Shown here one piece after another: positions 9,116 to 50,506 of a stretch of DNA of 64,000 nucleotides. Source of the stretch: Hymenobacter sedentarius (GTDB lineage Bacteria > Bacteroidota > Bacteroidia > Cytophagales > Hymenobacteraceae); assembly GCF_001507645.1 (NCBI RefSeq), contig NZ_CP013909.1:1054001-1118000 (forward strand), in the 5' to 3' direction. How positions within the stretch are numbered: position 1 is the first letter of the stretch; the number at the start of each line of letters is the position of its first letter. The notes under the pieces were generated by a model, which saw only the letters and a program-made list of their open reading frames with translations, did not search any database and was not told the origin of the DNA. The position numbers were made by a program, and so were the translations under genes.

Positions 9116-11242
9116 CTAGAAAAACTTCGTGCGGCTGTCTTTCACGTTGGCGTGGGCCTTGATGGCCTCGTAAATCTTGCCGTCCTGCTGCTGGGCACGC
9201 TGCTGCGCCAGCTGCTGCTGCACGGCTTTCAGGTTGGTGTTGGGCGTGGCGGGTGGGGTCACGCTCACCGGCTCAACTACCAGCACGCCCTGCTCGCCCT
9301 GGATGGGGGCCGACTTCTGGCCGGGCTTCAAGGCAAACGCTTTGCCCACCGCCAAGGGCTCGAAGCCCACGTTGGTAAGGTTGCCCTGGCCCAGCACTAC
9401 GTCGGCGGCGGTGCCGACCTGGGCCGTGGGGCCGTACTTGGAGGCCATTTCCTCCAGCGTACCCGCCTTCGGCAGCTTGGCCATGATTTGCTTGGCCTTC
9501 TCTTCGTTGCGCACCAGCGCCGAAAGCTCGGGCTTCAGGTTGGTTACCGTGGCGGTGCCTTTGGCGCGCTCGTCGGTGAGGGCGGCAATCACGTACTGGT
9601 CGCCCATCTCGTATACTTCCGAGATGTCGCCCACTTTGGTTTCGGCGCCGTTCTGGTTGAAGCCGAAGGCCCAACGCACCAGCTCACGCGCGTTCTGCAG
9701 GTTGTTGACGGTGCGGGCGCTGCGGTCCAGGTTTTTGGCCTCCTGCTTTACCAGGGTCTTGTCCTTGGTCACGAGCTTGCGGAAGCTCTCCAGGTCGGTG
9801 GCTTCGCCTTTCAGCTGCTGCGCCTTGGCGTAAGCGGCTTCGCGGGTGGCATCGCTGGGGGTAATGCTCTTCTTCACCTCAGCCACCTGATAGGTTTGCT
9901 TGGTGGGAGCCGCCGTGATTTTGATTACGTGGTAGCCAAACGAGGTTTCCACCACGTTGGGGAGCAGGCCGGGAGCGGTGGCGCCGAAAATAGCTTTTTC
10001 GAACTCGGGCACCATGCGGCCCTGGCCAAACCAGCCCAAGTCGCCGCCCTGCTCCTTGGTGCCGTCGGTTCCGAACTGACGGGCCATGGCGGCGAAGTCG
10101 GCGCCGGCTTTGATTTTCTTGAGGATGTCCTGGGCCTTGGCTTTCGCGGCGGCTTTGGCTTCGGGCGTGGTGCCTTCGGGCTTGATGAGGATGTGGCTGG
10201 CGCGGGCCGCGGCCTGCTTGCCGGTGCCCACCCCGGTTACCTTATACAGCGAGTACGTGCCGTTTTCAGCGTAAGGGCCATACACTTTGCCTTGGGCCAG
10301 GGGCAGCTGCTTGCGCAGTTGCTCGGGCAGGTCGGCGGGGCTGCGGAACGCCTTGTTGTAGGGCTGCTCCGAATTCTGCATCACAAACAGCGAGTCGACC
10401 GGGGCCGAGGCAAACTGCGTGGCCAACTCCGCAATCGAAGTCTTTACGGAAGCGCTGTCCTCTTTCGAGGGCACCACCGGGATGGTGATGTACTCCACCG
10501 AGCGGCCGTCTTCTACTTTGTACTTGCTCTGGTTCTTGTCGAGGTAAGCCTGGAGCTGAGCGTCGGTCACTTTCACGGCCGAGTCGGAAATGCTGGCGTA
10601 GGGCACGAACAGGTACTTCACCATGGCCTTGGTGCCTTGCGAAGTGTCGTAGCGCTTGGCTTCGGCGGTGGTCACGTACACCGAGTTTTTCAGCAGGGCG
10701 TTGTACTTGTTGGCCAGGCGCTCGGCGGGGAGGTTGGCTTCGAAGTTGTGCCAAGCGGCCTGGTTTTCGGGAGGCAGCTTATCGAGGTTTTTCAGGTACT
10801 CAATCAGGCGGGCTTTGTCGAACTGACCCGTTTTCTGGTCGGTAAAGGCCTGCTTGATGCCGTTGTTGATGTTGTCGCCCTGCACCATGTCCACCAGTTC
10901 GTCGTCCGATACGGTCAGGCCCAATTTCTCCCACTCGGGCTGGAAAGCCAGGCGGTAAATGGTCTGGTTCCAGGCCTGGTCGCGCAGGTAGCCGAGGGCT
11001 TGCTCGTCGGGCTGGCGCTGCTGCTGTGCGATAAACGCTTGCTTGGCTTGCTCGAGGGCGTTGTTGTAATCGGCCAGCTCCACTTTTTGGCCAGCCACCT
11101 CGCCTACTACTTGGTCGTTGCGGTTGAAAAGCCGGTTTTTGCCGCCTACCAGGTCGCCGCCCACAATAAAGAGCAGCATGCCGACGGCCACAAGGCCTAC
11201 CGCTACGCCTGATTTTTCTCGAATCGTGTTAATTAAAGCCAT
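9116..11242 (-). CDS. ppiD: Peptidylprolyl isomerase, PpiD/SurA type
   Basis: 708 residues. One N-terminal membrane helix (about 12-32, GVAVGLVAVGMLLFIVGGDL) anchors a large periplasmic part. A SurA_N-like helical region follows. A parvulin domain lies around 340-460 (ASHILIKPEGTTPE, FAAMARQFGTDGTKEQGGDLGWF, TSFGYHVIKI), then a second, weaker parvulin-like or C-terminal domain. PpiD acts at the Sec exit as a chaperone for outer membrane and secreted proteins. It lies in the conserved coaX - OMP - lptC - ppiD neighbourhood of Bacteroidota, which links it to envelope biogenesis. The start MALINTIREKSG is typical. Confidence 0.93.
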   Translation of the reverse strand: MALINTIREKSGVAVGLVAVGMLLFIVGGDLVGGKNRLFNRNDQVVGEVAGQKVELADYNNALEQAKQAFIAQQQRQPDEQALGYLRDQAWNQTIYRLAFQPEWEKLGLTVSDDELVDMVQGDNINNGIKQAFTDQKTGQFDKARLIEYLKNLDKLPPENQAAWHNFEANLPAERLANKYNALLKNSVYVTTAEAKRYDTSQGTKAMVKYLFVPYASISDSAVKVTDAQLQAYLDKNQSKYKVEDGRSVEYITIPVVPSKEDSASVKTSIAELATQFASAPVDSLFVMQNSEQPYNKAFRSPADLPEQLRKQLPLAQGKVYGPYAENGTYSLYKVTGVGTGKQAAARASHILIKPEGTTPEAKAAAKAKAQDILKKIKAGADFAAMARQFGTDGTKEQGGDLGWFGQGRMVPEFEKAIFGATAPGLLPNVVETSFGYHVIKITAAPTKQTYQVAEVKKSITPSDATREAAYAKAQQLKGEATDLESFRKLVTKDKTLVKQEAKNLDRSARTVNNLQNARELVRWAFGFNQNGAETKVGDISEVYEMGDQYVIAALTDERAKGTATVTNLKPELSALVRNEEKAKQIMAKLPKAGTLEEMASKYGPTAQVGTAADVVLGQGNLTNVGFEPLAVGKAFALKPGQKSAPIQGEQGVLVVEPVSVTPPATPNTNLKAVQQQLAQQRAQQQDGKIYEAIKAHANVKDSRTKFF

Positions 11243-21921: not shown

Positions 21922-21953
21922 GACAAAAATGTTTCACGTGGAACATTTTTGTC
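21922..21953. promoter_or_regulatory. parS-like ParB-binding site in a 32-bp palindrome
   Basis: The 16-mer TGTTTCACGTGGAACA at 21930-21945 fits the parS consensus (TGTTnCACGTGAAACA read on the other strand). It lies at the centre of a longer palindrome (GACAAAAATGTTTCAC / GTGGAACATTTTTGTC) with one central mismatch. The right arm reaches into the stop codon of the HTH gene. It could act as ParB site and 3' hairpin at once. Confidence 0.8.
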
Positions 21954-43113: not shown

Positions 43114-43160
43114 CTTGTCCACTTATCCACATCGAAATACCGTCGAAATGTGGATAAGTC
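43114..43160. promoter_or_regulatory. Inverted pair of perfect DnaA boxes
   Basis: TTATCCACA at 43123-43131 and its reverse complement TGTGGATAA at 43149-43157, inside a 12-bp perfect inverted repeat (ACTTATCCACAT / ATGTGGATAAGT). A weaker TTGTCCACT lies just left. It stands about 1.2 kb left of the main box cluster and could be an accessory part of the origin, or a DnaA-controlled operator, since it lies a few bases past the stop codon of the minus-strand gene. Confidence 0.75.
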
Positions 43161-43779: not shown

Positions 43780-44274
43780 CTACTTCCCGTATTTCTCTAT
43801 AAAGGTTTCTTTCTGCCGCAGGTACTCGGGGTGCGCTTTGGCCTGGTCCCACTTGCGCTTGAAGATGGCGGCGGCTTCCACCTTGTTCTCGTCGGGGTGG
43901 GTGGTGCGGGGCAGTTCGGCCCGGCCGTGGGCCCCGCTTTGGCCCTTCTTGTCGTCGGGCACGGGACCGGCGTACTTCTTGCCGCCGCGGTGGTTGGCGT
44001 AGCGCCGGGCCCGCGTAAAGCCCATCTGAATGAATTTCCGAGCCATGTCGGCCCCCACGAAATCCTGTGCTTTCAAATAAGCCTCAAATAGCCCGTAAAT
44101 GGTCTCCGACGACTCGGTGGCTGCCGCCGCGTCTTTGAAGCGCCAGTGGGGCAGGATTTCGCCCTTGTAGGGCTGTACCAGCAGCACGCCCTGCTCGCCC
44201 CGGCCCACGCGGTACAGCTCGGGGTGCTGCCGGAAATCAACAGTCTGGAAATCGAGGGTGTAATCGAACGGCAT
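43780..44274 (-). CDS. DUF4385 protein
   Basis: 164 residues matching DUF4385: DYTLDFQTVDFRQHPELYRVGRGEQGVLLVQPYKGEILPHWRFKD, then KAQDFVGADMARKFIQMGFTRARRYANHRGGKKY. The C-terminal half is charged and ends FIEKYGK. The family is widespread in bacteria and of unknown function. No signal peptide. It reads away from the DnaA-box region, with its start 70 bases from the first box-like site, so its promoter may lie within the origin. Both this and the acidic-protein gene are on the minus strand. Confidence 0.88.
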   Translation of the reverse strand: MPFDYTLDFQTVDFRQHPELYRVGRGEQGVLLVQPYKGEILPHWRFKDAAAATESSETIYGLFEAYLKAQDFVGADMARKFIQMGFTRARRYANHRGGKKYAGPVPDDKKGQSGAHGRAELPRTTHPDENKVEAAAIFKRKWDQAKAHPEYLRQKETFIEKYGK

Positions 44275-44339: not shown

Positions 44340-45180
44340 GTGGGTACCCTAGCGCAATGTGGAATACCTCGGTGGATAGGTGGATAAGTTCAGCTCCACT
44401 TCTGAATGCGCTCGGCAAGGACCTCTTCTACGGAAGGCCGAAGTGGAAGCTGTGCCCTTTCAACAGAAGCGGGCAGTGATTGTGGGAAACGGGCCGCACC
44501 ACTTTTCGGGCCTGGCTTTTCGGCGCGCGGTTGAGCCGGACAAACGCCTCAGCCCATCGAGCCGCTTTGCGCAACAAATTTTCTGAGCTGAAAAGCAAGC
44601 TTCCCAAATCAGGGCCCAAACCCTTTCAACCGGGGCTTGAGGTCAAAACCCTTCATTCGGGTTTTCCCCAATCTTAATTTTTTATTAAATCTTTTTTCTA
44701 AAAAACCTTCTTTGTTTCCACTCATTAGGTCGGTTGATAAGTGGATAAGCTCGAGCGGTTATCCCCAGCGTGGAAAACGTGGGGGTAAGCATGGCCTTAT
44801 CCACGCACTATCCACCGCCATTGTGGAAAACAAAATACTGTTAATCATAATATTATCTCCTTTTTCAACATCGGCTAGTGCTTTCCACATTTTCCCTGTC
44901 CCCACGAAAATGGGCATGTGGGAAGCCTGTCTGGCGTGGAAAAGTTATCCACGGTTATCCCCGCTCCTTCCGCCCTGTGCAGGGATGTAAACCACCAAAA
45001 AAACTTGTACCCTACTTATCCCCGTTCAGCTTTCCACTATCCCCGAGGTTATCCCCGAAATTACCCCCAGAGCGAAATGAATGTGGAAAAGCCGGTGGAA
45101 AAGCGGTGGAATACCCTTCAAAAAGCCTTTCAGTAACTGGAATAAGCGAATAGTTATCCACGAATGTGGATAAAAGGGGC
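44340..45180. other. oriC: Probable chromosomal replication origin (oriC)
   Basis: Non-coding, with about 20 DnaA-box-like nonamers. The perfect box TGTGGATAA is at 45165. One-base variants: GGTGGATAA 44380, AGTGGATAA 44740, TTATCCACG 44797, 44945 and 45154, TTATCCCCA 44759, TGTGGAAAA 44822 and 45082. Others: CTATCCACC 44808, CTTTCCACA 44881, TTATCCCCG 44955, 45016 and 45049, CTATCCCCG 45037, CGTGGAAAA 44769 and 44935, GGTGGAAAA 45094. AT-rich blocks at about 44672-44720 and 44826-44880 are candidate unwinding elements. No gene was found inside. Confidence 0.88.
44672..44720. other. AT-rich candidate DNA unwinding element
   Basis: A T/A-only-dominated block (TTAATTTTTTATTAAATC, then TTTTTTCTAAAAAA) in a GC-rich genome, directly beside box-like sites on one side. 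A second block, rich in AATA, lies at 44826-44880. Both fit a duplex unwinding element; which one opens cannot be told. Confidence 0.6.
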
Positions 45181-45420: not shown

Positions 45421-47055
45421 CTAAAACTTGAGGGGCTCCACCAGGTCGAATCCGGCCCGCACCTGCTGGGGGTTGGGGTCCAGGTACACCGGCTCGGGCG
45501 GGAGCAGCAGGTTCGGGTCGCCGTTACGCCAGTGGCCATCGCCGTCGCTGTCAATCAGCACGCGTAGGTGGTAAACGCCGGGGGGCACGTCCGTAAACAG
45601 GTAGCTTCCCTTGGGCGAGGCCAGGCTGGCCACCACCTGCAGCTTATCGTCGAGCAACTGCAGCTCAAAGTTTTTCTCCTTGGTGGTAATCGGGCCCGAC
45701 AGGCTATTCGACACGTCCTGCTCGCTGATGCCGAGGCGCAACGGCCGCAACCGCAAGGCCTGCCCCGTAATGGCCGTGATGGCCGTGCTGTCGAGTACAA
45801 TGTCGAGCCGCGCGTGGGCCCTGCTATTGAACCGCACAATAAGGGCCGTGCGGTCGGGGCTGAGGGTGCCATCGGCCGGCAGGCGCAGGGGCCGGCGCTT
45901 CGCTGAATCCTCGACCAGCGTGCCGAACGGCCGGCCCGTGGCCACGCGCACCGGTACGGCAAACAGGAACTTGACCTGGCCCTTGGGGAATACCGTGCGC
46001 GGGCTGCCATCCACCGTGTACAAGCTCGGGGGCGGGATTTTTTTGCCATTGGTGGGGGCGGCCGGAAACTTCACCTGCAGCGTGTCGTGCCCCACGTTGC
46101 CGGTGCTGTCGGCCGTGGTGAGCAGGTAGCGCCCATCCCCTACCTCCGGGGTTTTGAAGAGCACCACCGTGCGGCCCCGGTCGGTGAGCAGCAGCGCCTC
46201 GGCCACGGCGGGCGGGGCCTGAGTTGAGCCAACTGGCGCCAGAGCCGCCGACCGCAGGCCTTCATTGAAACTCAGGCGCAGTTGCGTGGGGCTGGCCTGC
46301 CGGGTAGTCAGCAGCGGCGGGCGCCGGTCAGGCTGGGTGAGGACGAGCGCCACCGGCGCGCCCGTGCTGCCGGTAATGGTGATGGGCGCGGGCAGGTAGG
46401 CAATTTTCTCGCCTTCGTCGTAGCGGCCGTTGGTGTTTTTGTCCACCAGGGCGTAGATTTTGTAGGGCCCGGCTTTGAGGAAGCTGAAATTGAATTTGCC
46501 TTCCTTATCAGTGAGCACGGTGTAGTAGGGCCGGCCGCGCTTCACACCGGCGGTATCGGCCTGGCGGTAGAGGCCCACGCTGGCCTCGGCTATGGGTTTG
46601 GCCGTCAGCACGTCGGTGACGGTGCCGCTCACCTTGCCCGAATCCAGCACGGCGCCCGTGCTGAAGTTGAGGGCCGCGTTGGTGGCGGGCAGGCCCTCGG
46701 TAATGTCGACCACGCCGCTCCGGAAATTGAAGCTGTAAGTGGTGTTGGCGTCGAGCGGCTTGTCAAAAAGCAGGGTGATGGAGTTCCGCTCCTCGCGCAG
46801 CTTGTAGGGGTTGTCGGGTGGCAGCTGCGGGGTAATGAGCAGGTTTTTGCTCAAGTCCTTGGTGACGACGGGCTCCGAAAACACCAGGCGCACGAACTGC
46901 TGCTTCACGTTGCGGGCGGCGCTATCCGGCGAGCTGCTGATGCGGCGCGGCGGGGTGCGGTCGCGCGGGCCGCCCTGGGGCGGGGCCACGGCAGCGCAGC
47001 TTTCGAGCAAGGCAACCATTGCCAGCAAAGCCAGCAGTTCAGCGCGAACGGACAT
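45421..47055 (-). CDS. Ig-like domain lipoprotein
   Basis: 544 residues from MSVRAELLALLAMVALLESC, which ends in a lipobox (LLESC, Cys 20); a longer frame to 47109 adds 18 residues. An SbsA-type Ig domain (FVRLVFSEPVVTKDLSKNLL, residues about 55-140) is followed by a CarboxypepD_reg-like segment (VSGTVTDVLTAKPIAEASVGLY), further Ig-like strands, and a terminal SpaA-like piece (GVYHLRVLIDSDGDGHW). Probably a surface or outer-membrane lipoprotein; the substrate is unknown. It transcribes towards oriC. Confidence 0.85.
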   Translation of the reverse strand: MSVRAELLALLAMVALLESCAAVAPPQGGPRDRTPPRRISSSPDSAARNVKQQFVRLVFSEPVVTKDLSKNLLITPQLPPDNPYKLREERNSITLLFDKPLDANTTYSFNFRSGVVDITEGLPATNAALNFSTGAVLDSGKVSGTVTDVLTAKPIAEASVGLYRQADTAGVKRGRPYYTVLTDKEGKFNFSFLKAGPYKIYALVDKNTNGRYDEGEKIAYLPAPITITGSTGAPVALVLTQPDRRPPLLTTRQASPTQLRLSFNEGLRSAALAPVGSTQAPPAVAEALLLTDRGRTVVLFKTPEVGDGRYLLTTADSTGNVGHDTLQVKFPAAPTNGKKIPPPSLYTVDGSPRTVFPKGQVKFLFAVPVRVATGRPFGTLVEDSAKRRPLRLPADGTLSPDRTALIVRFNSRAHARLDIVLDSTAITAITGQALRLRPLRLGISEQDVSNSLSGPITTKEKNFELQLLDDKLQVVASLASPKGSYLFTDVPPGVYHLRVLIDSDGDGHWRNGDPNLLLPPEPVYLDPNPQQVRAGFDLVEPLKF

Positions 47056-47318
47056 TATACAACAACGTGGTGAGAGTAAGCACAACAATAGCCGCCCGCT
47101 ATGCCGCATAGAAGAAACCAGCGCAGCAGCACCCGACTCGGCAGTAACGACGGCAACGCGCCGAACGGTATCTGGTGCAAAGGTGGGCGAAGGAGTTTAA
47201 ACCGAATCCAGCCCAAGGCAGGCGATGGGAAGCGCGGGCGGCAGCAGTGCCAGGAAATCCAGGCCAGCCGCTGCTAACAGTCGGCTTCGGCCGAGCTTCT
47301 CCCCGTCGGCCGGCTGCC

Positions 47319-48447: not shown

Positions 48448-50316
48448 TTAGCGCCCCAGGTACACCATCAGCACCGATACATCGGCCGGCGAAATGCCGC
48501 TGATGCGCGAGGCCTGCCCAATGGTTTCGGGCTGAATCTTGAGCAGTTTCTCCCGGGCCTCGTGGCTGAGCGCCGGCATGGCCCGGTAGTCGAGCCGGCC
48601 CTGGATTACGAAGTTTTCCAGCTCCTGCTGGCGGGCGGCTTGCTGGTGCTCCTTTGCCAGGTAGGTTTCGTACTTAATGTTGATGATGGCCTGCTCCAGG
48701 GCTTCTTCATCAAACGCTGCGAGGGCCATATCCAGCGCGGGCAGGGCCCGGCGCAGGTCAGCCAGCTCCAGGTTGGGCCGGCGCAGAAGGTTCACCGCGC
48801 GGGTCTTCTCGTGGATTTCGGCCGAGCCTAGCTCAACCAGCATAGGATTCGCCTCAGCCGCTTCGATGCCGAACTTCTGCAGTAGCTCGGCTACTTCAGC
48901 CGTCTGCGCTTCCTTCATCCGCACCCGTTCCAGCCGCTCGTCCGAGGCCAGACCCAACTCGTGGCCCAGGGGGGTGAGGCGCAAGTCGGCATTGTCCTGG
49001 CGCAGCAGAATGCGGTGCTCGGCGCGGCTCGTGAACATGCGGTAGGGCTCGTCGGTGCCTTTGTTTACTAGGTCGTCGATGAGCACGCCGATGTAGGCTT
49101 CGCTCCTTTTCAGGACGAAGGGCGCCTTGCCGTGCACTTTGTTGTGGGCGTTGATGCCGGCCATCAGGCCCTGGCAGGCGGCTTCTTCGTAGCCCGTGGT
49201 GCCGTTGATTTGGCCCGCGAAATATAGGTTCTGCACGCGCTTGGTTTCCAAGGTCAGCCCAAGCTGGGTGGGCGGGAAAAAGTCGTACTCGATGGCATAG
49301 CCCGGGCGGAACATCTTGGCGTTTTCGAAGCCCGCGATTTCGCGCAGGGCGCGGTATTGCACGTCTTCGGGCAGCGAGCTCGAAAAGCCATTGATGTAGC
49401 ACTCCACGGTGCTCCAGCCCTCGGGCTCCACAAAAATCTGGTGCCGGTCTTTGTCGGCGAAGCGGTTGATTTTGTCTTCTACCGACGGGCAGTAGCGCGG
49501 CCCCAGGCCCTTGATGCGGCCCTGGAACATGGGCGACTTCTCGAAGCCCTCGCGCAGGATGTCGTGCACCCGCTCGTTGGTGTAGGTGATGTAGCAGGGC
49601 CGCTGCTGCGTGAGCCGCGGCGTGTCGATGTAAGAAAACTTGCTGGGCACGTCGTCGCCGCCCTGCACCTCCATTTTGGAGTAGTCAAGGCTGCGGCCGT
49701 CCACGCGGGGCGGGGTGCCGGTTTTCATGCGCCCGGCTTCAAAGCCCAGCTCCAGCAGCTGCTCGGTGATGCCGCGGCTGCCTTTTTCGGCCGCCCGGCC
49801 GCCCCCGAAATTCTTCTCGCCGATGTGGATGAGGCCGTTCAGGAAGGTGCCGTTGGTAAGCACCACCGACTTGCCCCGGAACTCGATGCCGAGCTGGGTT
49901 TTCACGCCCACCACGGCGTCGTCTTCCACCACGAGGCCGGTCACGGCTTCCTGCCAGAAGTCCACGTTTTTGATGCCTTCCAGGGTCAGGCGCCAAGCTT
50001 CGGCGAAGCGCATCCGGTCGCTCTGGGCGCGGGGGCTCCACATGGCGGGGCCCTTGGAGCGGTTCAGCATCCGGAACTGAATCATGGTCTGGTCGGTGAT
50101 GATGCCCGACTGGCCGCCCAGCGCGTCGATTTCGCGCACAATCTGGCCCTTGGCTACGCCGCCCATGGCCGGGTTGCACGACATCTGGGCGATGGTGTTC
50201 ATGTTCATCGTCACCAGCAGCACCTTCGAGCCGAGGTTGGCGGCCGCGGCCGCGGCTTCGCAGCCGGCATGGCCCGCGCCCACTACAATGACGTCGTAAT
50301 CTTCTTGCTGAAACAT
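48448..50316 (-). CDS. mnmG: tRNA uridine-5-carboxymethylaminomethyl modification enzyme MnmG (GidA)
   Basis: 622 residues, normal. FAD-binding GxGxxG is [12 protein letters not shown] (11-22). Characteristic blocks are [26 protein letters not shown] (near 40-65, with the conserved Cys), [25 protein letters not shown] and the C-terminal HTH-like [27 protein letters not shown]. With MnmE it makes cmnm5U34 in tRNAs. mnmG (gidA, 'glucose-inhibited division') often lies near oriC; it does so here, 3.3 kb from the box cluster. A TAATTTTG element is at 50451-50458. Confidence 0.97.
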
Positions 50317-50468: not shown

Positions 50469-50506
50469 AACCCGCAGCCAGTTTCACGTGAAACGAGTTG
50501 CGGGTT
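50469..50506. promoter_or_regulatory. parS-like site nested in a terminator hairpin
   Basis: The core GTTTCACGTGAAAC (50481-50494) is a perfect 14-bp match to the centre of the parS consensus. It is enclosed symmetrically by AACCCGCA / TGCGGGTT, so the whole 38 bp can form a hairpin (16 of 19 pairs). On the minus strand the sequence continues GCGGGTTTTTGATTT, a T-rich tail, so it also looks like the terminator of the gene at 50536. Confidence 0.82.

Follow-up and report, generated by a model that had tools for sequence, protein, structure and literature searches.

A predicted chromosomal replication origin near mnmG and remote from dnaA in Hymenobacter sedentarius

Introduction

The oriC of Escherichia coli is found in the gene order gidA/mnmG-oriC-mioC and contains TTATCCACA DnaA boxes and an AT-rich unwinding element located beside TTATTAGG and the first box. 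Bipartite origins, such as those of B. subtilis and H. pylori (oriC1/oriC2), have two groups of boxes with coding sequence between them. A frequent neighbour of oriC in bacteria is the gene dnaA (PMC10225481). Origins adjoining mnmG have been predicted in the Flavobacteriaceae, specifically in Mariniflexile litorale (PMC11278836) and Algorimicrobium (PMC12843772), the former explicitly away from dnaA and consistent with the GC skew (PMC11278836). The basal origin unwinding system is made up of DnaA-boxes and DnaA-trios, and the search for it calls for three or more NAN repeats no farther than 16 bp from a DnaA box (PMC8287927). A published oriC of Hymenobacter was not found in the literature searched (subscription papers and the DoriC tables lay outside the search, and a listing there is possible).

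Here we describe a predicted origin in a window of 64 kb, i.e., the whole stretch of DNA analysed, which covers positions 1,054,001-1,118,000 of the single 4,868,852-base contig (the 4.87 Mb chromosome) of Hymenobacter sedentarius. Coordinates of features refer to the window (Table 1) and those in Mb to the chromosome.

Results

A dense cluster of DnaA boxes near mnmG

The intergenic stretch between the DUF4385 gene and the Big_5 lipoprotein gene carries, within 44340-45180, one perfect match to TTATCCACA; the number of matches rises to 9 when one mismatch is allowed and to 25 when two are. The level expected by chance was obtained from 1000 dinucleotide shuffles of the same region, which averaged 0.01, 0.17 and 2.17 matches, respectively, and never exceeded 1, 4 and 9. 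The original prediction had placed an oriC here with a box density beyond chance, and this agrees with the 9 boxes observed against 0.17 expected. The individual sites that it named (TGTGGATAA at 45165; TTATCCACG at 44797, 44945 and 45154) were all recovered, and its two AT-rich blocks are real, the GC content of the genome being about 61%. The neighbours it had claimed (DUF4385, an Ig-like lipoprotein and mnmG at 3.3 kb) are borne out by coordinates and profile matches. Its extent has to be qualified: the cluster does occupy 44340-45180, but the conserved core is narrower and the part from 44340 to 44640 is hardly conserved. The best matches of mnmG come from Hymenobacter (99% to H. sp. BT770), and the gene is separated from the predicted origin by the lipoprotein gene and a methyltransferase gene. 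Neither Rfam families nor tRNAs were found in the 64-kb window.

Table 1. Coordinates of the predicted origin, its elements and its neighbours in the window.
Feature	Position	Strand	Remarks
parS-like palindrome TGTTTCACGTGGAACA	21930-21945		About 22 kb left of the predicted origin; 1 mismatch
Second box group: TTGTCCACT, perfect TTATCCACA, perfect TGTGGATAA	43115-43157		Between phosphate transporter and 161-aa ORF
DUF4385 gene	43780-44274	-	Flanks predicted origin; PF14328, E 2.9e-67
Main DnaA-box cluster (predicted oriC)	44340-45180		9 boxes at <=1 mismatch vs 0.17 in shuffles
Conserved core, about 515 bp	44660-45173		75-84% identity in eight related species; flanks unalignable
AT-rich block, likely main unwinding element (DUE)	44672-44720		18% GC; conserved
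TCATTAGG, short GC tract, tandem boxes GGTTGATAA + AGTGGATAA	44722-44748	+	DnaA-trio-like 3'-GAT-TAC-5' adjoining tandem boxes
DnaA box TTATCCACG	44797-44805	+	Conserved in most relatives
Second AT-rich block, inside box cluster	44826-44880		29% GC; conservation below that of the first block
Tandem DnaA boxes TTATCCACG + TTATCCCCG	44945-44963	+	Retained in nearly all aligned relatives
Facing boxes TTATCCACG + TGTGGATAA	45154-45173		TGTGGATAA is the sole perfect box of the main cluster
Big_5/Ig-like lipoprotein gene	45421-47109	-	Flanks predicted origin; PF13205; same neighbour in Cytophagales loci
mnmG, conserved origin neighbour	48448-50316	-	TIGR00136, 839 bits
parS-like palindrome AGTTTCACGTGAAACG	50480-50495		Upstream of mnmG; one of the genome's two at <=2 mismatches

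Anatomy of the predicted origin

From left to right, the core consists of the AT-rich block, TCATTAGG, a GC tract, tandem boxes, further boxes lying on either strand and finally a facing pair. The most AT-rich 50-mers of the first block are equalled at just two other places in the window, and this conserved block, placed beside the boxes, is the likely main unwinding element of the predicted oriC. The tandem boxes next to it (GGTTGATAA-AGTGGATAA) occupy 44732-44748, and the element that includes them has TTATCCACTTATCAACCGACCTAATGA on the opposite strand. A strict pattern of this arrangement matched about 25 of 73 loci, from Hymenobacter, Rufibacter, Adhaeribacter and Pontibacter. In the 3' to 5' direction, moving outward from the boxes, the triplets are GAT, TAC and then TCA, which amounts to only two DnaA-trios of the NAN form.

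Two more perfect boxes, at 43123 and 43149, lie outside the main cluster and face each other within the second box group. The gap between the phosphate transporter and the 161-aa ORF contains at least two boxes in all 31 Hymenobacter/Solirubrum loci, and zero or one in Rufibacter and Adhaeribacter. A bipartite origin of Hymenobacter, in which this small strong group (43115-43157), specific to the lineage among the loci compared, and the main cluster (44379-45173) would act together while flanking two genes unrelated to dnaA, is an idea that we put forward tentatively, as somewhat doubtful.

Conservation in related genomes

The original prediction had pointed to related genomes as a place to look for conservation of the boxes, and there they are conserved. 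We have compared 80 loci around mnmG relatives. Of the 67 that exceed 20 kb in length, 65 have the 800 bp richest in box-like sites located 2.0-4.6 kb past mnmG. The gene order methyltransferase, lipoprotein, cluster, 161-aa ORF and glyS is shared by Hymenobacter and Rufibacter and kept in Pontibacter, with more DNA in between. Close relatives align over approximately the conserved core (44660-45173) and hardly beyond. De novo, the enriched word was TTATCCAC in Hymenobacter, and AAAAGTGGA with related GTGGA words in Pontibacter. In one locus (L100, Hymenobacter rubripertinctus) the lipoprotein gene is followed by neither box cluster, DUF4385 nor transporter, with no run of N; this perhaps reflects a rearrangement or a misassembly at the origin.

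GC skew and gene strand along the chromosome

The genome was sampled in 80 evenly spaced 20-kb stretches (about one third of its length) plus some further ones. In the 80 stretches, the raw cumulative GC skew was lowest between the 1.035 and 1.095 Mb bins and highest at 3.53 Mb, the position of the cluster being 1.099 Mb and that of its exact antipode 3.533 Mb. The cumulative minimum that the original prediction had expected at the site is thus present in these sampled stretches, as a weak signal confounded by gene direction (correlation between GC skew and gene direction, -0.67). When gene direction was used as a covariate, a scan of antipodal axes over 244 positions gave the greatest effect at 1.10 Mb (t=5.0 with the terminus set at the dif-like site described below). 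A free two-breakpoint fit placed the origin at about 1.42 Mb, with a somewhat better fit than that of the window (SS 0.0393 vs 0.0442), and therefore skew by itself could not decide the origin. The skew at fourfold sites, with a minimum at 1.34 Mb, was too noisy and was set aside. For a second species, BT18, of which just 20 stretches were sampled, the best axis after covariate correction fell at 2.84-3.04 Mb, away from the cluster of that genome at 2.455 Mb.

Genes right of the site are mostly on the minus strand, and this had been held against an origin here. The objection carries little weight because the genome has no leading-strand bias to violate: the leading-strand share of the sampled coding sequence is 50.4%. 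Gene strand bias was also dropped as evidence for the origin (genome-wide leading fraction 0.50). Genes located up to about 500 kb from the predicted origin, in both directions, are mildly head-on (leading fraction 0.38-0.43).

A dif-like site opposite the cluster and parS-like sites around it

The top dif-like match in the genome, the 21-mer TTATAATTTATATTATGTTAA at 3,517,485-3,517,505 on the minus strand (locus L184), lies about 16 kb away from the point exactly opposite the cluster. Of the 61 Hymenobacter genomes sampled, 60 have this 21-mer or a near copy of it. Its distance to mnmG is about half the genome in single-contig relatives (2.48 of 5.0 Mb in G014, 2.50 of 5.1 in G034, 3.08 of 6.1 Mb in G054 and 2.32 of 4.4 Mb in G022, sizes rounded). 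The whole genome contains two parS-like sites at up to two mismatches, both inside the window and, as had been predicted, on both sides of the cluster (at 21930 and 50480). A reversed control pattern gave equally many chance sites, so it is the shared position of the parS-like sites that counts. In Rufibacter and Pontibacter (loci L118-L148, at approximately 9955-9974), mnmG is preceded at a distance of about 40 bp by a perfect parS, TGTTTCACGTGAAACA; in Hymenobacter this parS is degenerate or absent.

The skew extremes, the dif-like and parS-like sites, the orientation of the rRNA operons (see below) and the conservation beside mnmG all agree with the oriC reading. On these comparative grounds we consider that the stretch is very probably the chromosomal replication origin (oriC) of Hymenobacter, with a probability of roughly 0.95.

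Alternative readings

A cluster of boxes may bind DnaA and yet not fire, and this cluster is far from dnaA, which is found at 2.476 Mb, 1.37 Mb away, as the original prediction had anticipated in placing the site away from that gene. A cluster that titrates DnaA or has a regulatory role (datA/DARS-like), the true oriC being located elsewhere, would have these features, but we regard it as very improbable. More than three boxes (at up to one mismatch) per 800 bp appeared solely in the cluster-bearing stretch among the 80 sampled 20-kb stretches, the others having at most three, so that a second cluster was not found in the sample. Along the same lines, TTATCCMCR sites cluster here alone among the matches listed (up to 3.8 Mb), and the skew axis, the dif-like site and the parS-like sites all indicate this cluster.

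The axis could also be reversed, the window being the terminus and the origin lying near 3.53 Mb, as might be thought from the tendency of genes around the window to be head-on to forks leaving it. However, forks from the cluster run codirectionally with all three rRNA operons (388,756, minus strand; 1,390,213 and 2,784,403, plus strand) and with rpoB and rplB (both on the plus strand, 1.91-1.93 Mb), all of which would become head-on. The usual sign of the skew would flip; the origin would carry the dif-like site, and the terminus the parS-like sites and the DnaA boxes, which makes this reading extremely improbable.

An origin at dnaA (2.476 Mb) would follow the pattern of many bacteria, in which this gene often adjoins oriC (PMC10225481). 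Hardly any credit can be given to it here, since no box cluster was found beside it (one box at up to one mismatch in the 3.5 kb around the gene), the axis there has almost zero covariate-corrected skew effect, and dnaA is unlinked to the conserved mnmG-dif axis in relatives (in each of the 10 checked, the two genes are about 1-2 Mb apart).

Discussion

A way to picture how the predicted oriC might work is to start from its initiator. Domains I, III and IV of DnaA match those of solved structures of this protein, and its canonical domain IV retains the box-reading motif GGRDHTTV in the helix-turn-helix. The protein, encoded 1.37 Mb away, would bind the many strong and weak boxes through this domain and, starting at the tandem boxes (44732-44748), oligomerise over the GC tract and the DnaA-trio-like TCATTAGG into the AT-rich block. 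The block at 44672-44720 would then melt and receive the replicative helicase, and upon firing two forks would depart to meet near the dif-like site at 3.5175 Mb. The parS-like sites near the origin may let ParB segregate it.

The analysis supplies a precise, testable origin for Hymenobacter, together with dif-like and parS-like sites for the same chromosomes. The conserved order parS-mnmG-methyltransferase-lipoprotein-oriC-161-aa ORF-glyS lets oriC be placed in related Cytophagales, whose genome records, if rotated to dnaA, would begin at the wrong place.

Among the known systems, the oriC of E. coli resembles the predicted origin in the neighbouring mnmG, the TTATCCACA boxes and the AT-rich element, which adjoins a box and a TTATTAGG-like element. 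The Hymenobacter origin is longer and has more boxes, and in this lineage mnmG is transcribed toward the origin, with two other genes in between. The layout resembles the bipartite origins of B. subtilis and H. pylori in having coding sequence between two groups of boxes, but here the genes in between are the 161-aa ORF and DUF4385, not dnaA. The likeness to the basal unwinding system lies in the tandem boxes (of which the less perfect is closer to the unwinding element), the short GC tract and the 3'-GAT-TAC-5' sequence; the difference, in that the Hymenobacter window has just two clear trios whereas at least three are demanded (PMC8287927). The Flavobacteriaceae origins are also predicted beside mnmG, but they belong to another class and are Ori-Finder predictions, while for Hymenobacter we describe the box anatomy, the neighbours and the conservation across Cytophagales; unlike in those predictions, lipoprotein and methyltransferase genes stand between mnmG and the origin. 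Since origins linked to mnmG and remote from dnaA had already been predicted in Flavobacteriaceae, the kind is known, and the Hymenobacter site is almost certainly a sound annotation of a known arrangement and no new kind of system. What may be new is the detailed anatomy of a Hymenobacter origin and its possible bipartite layout.
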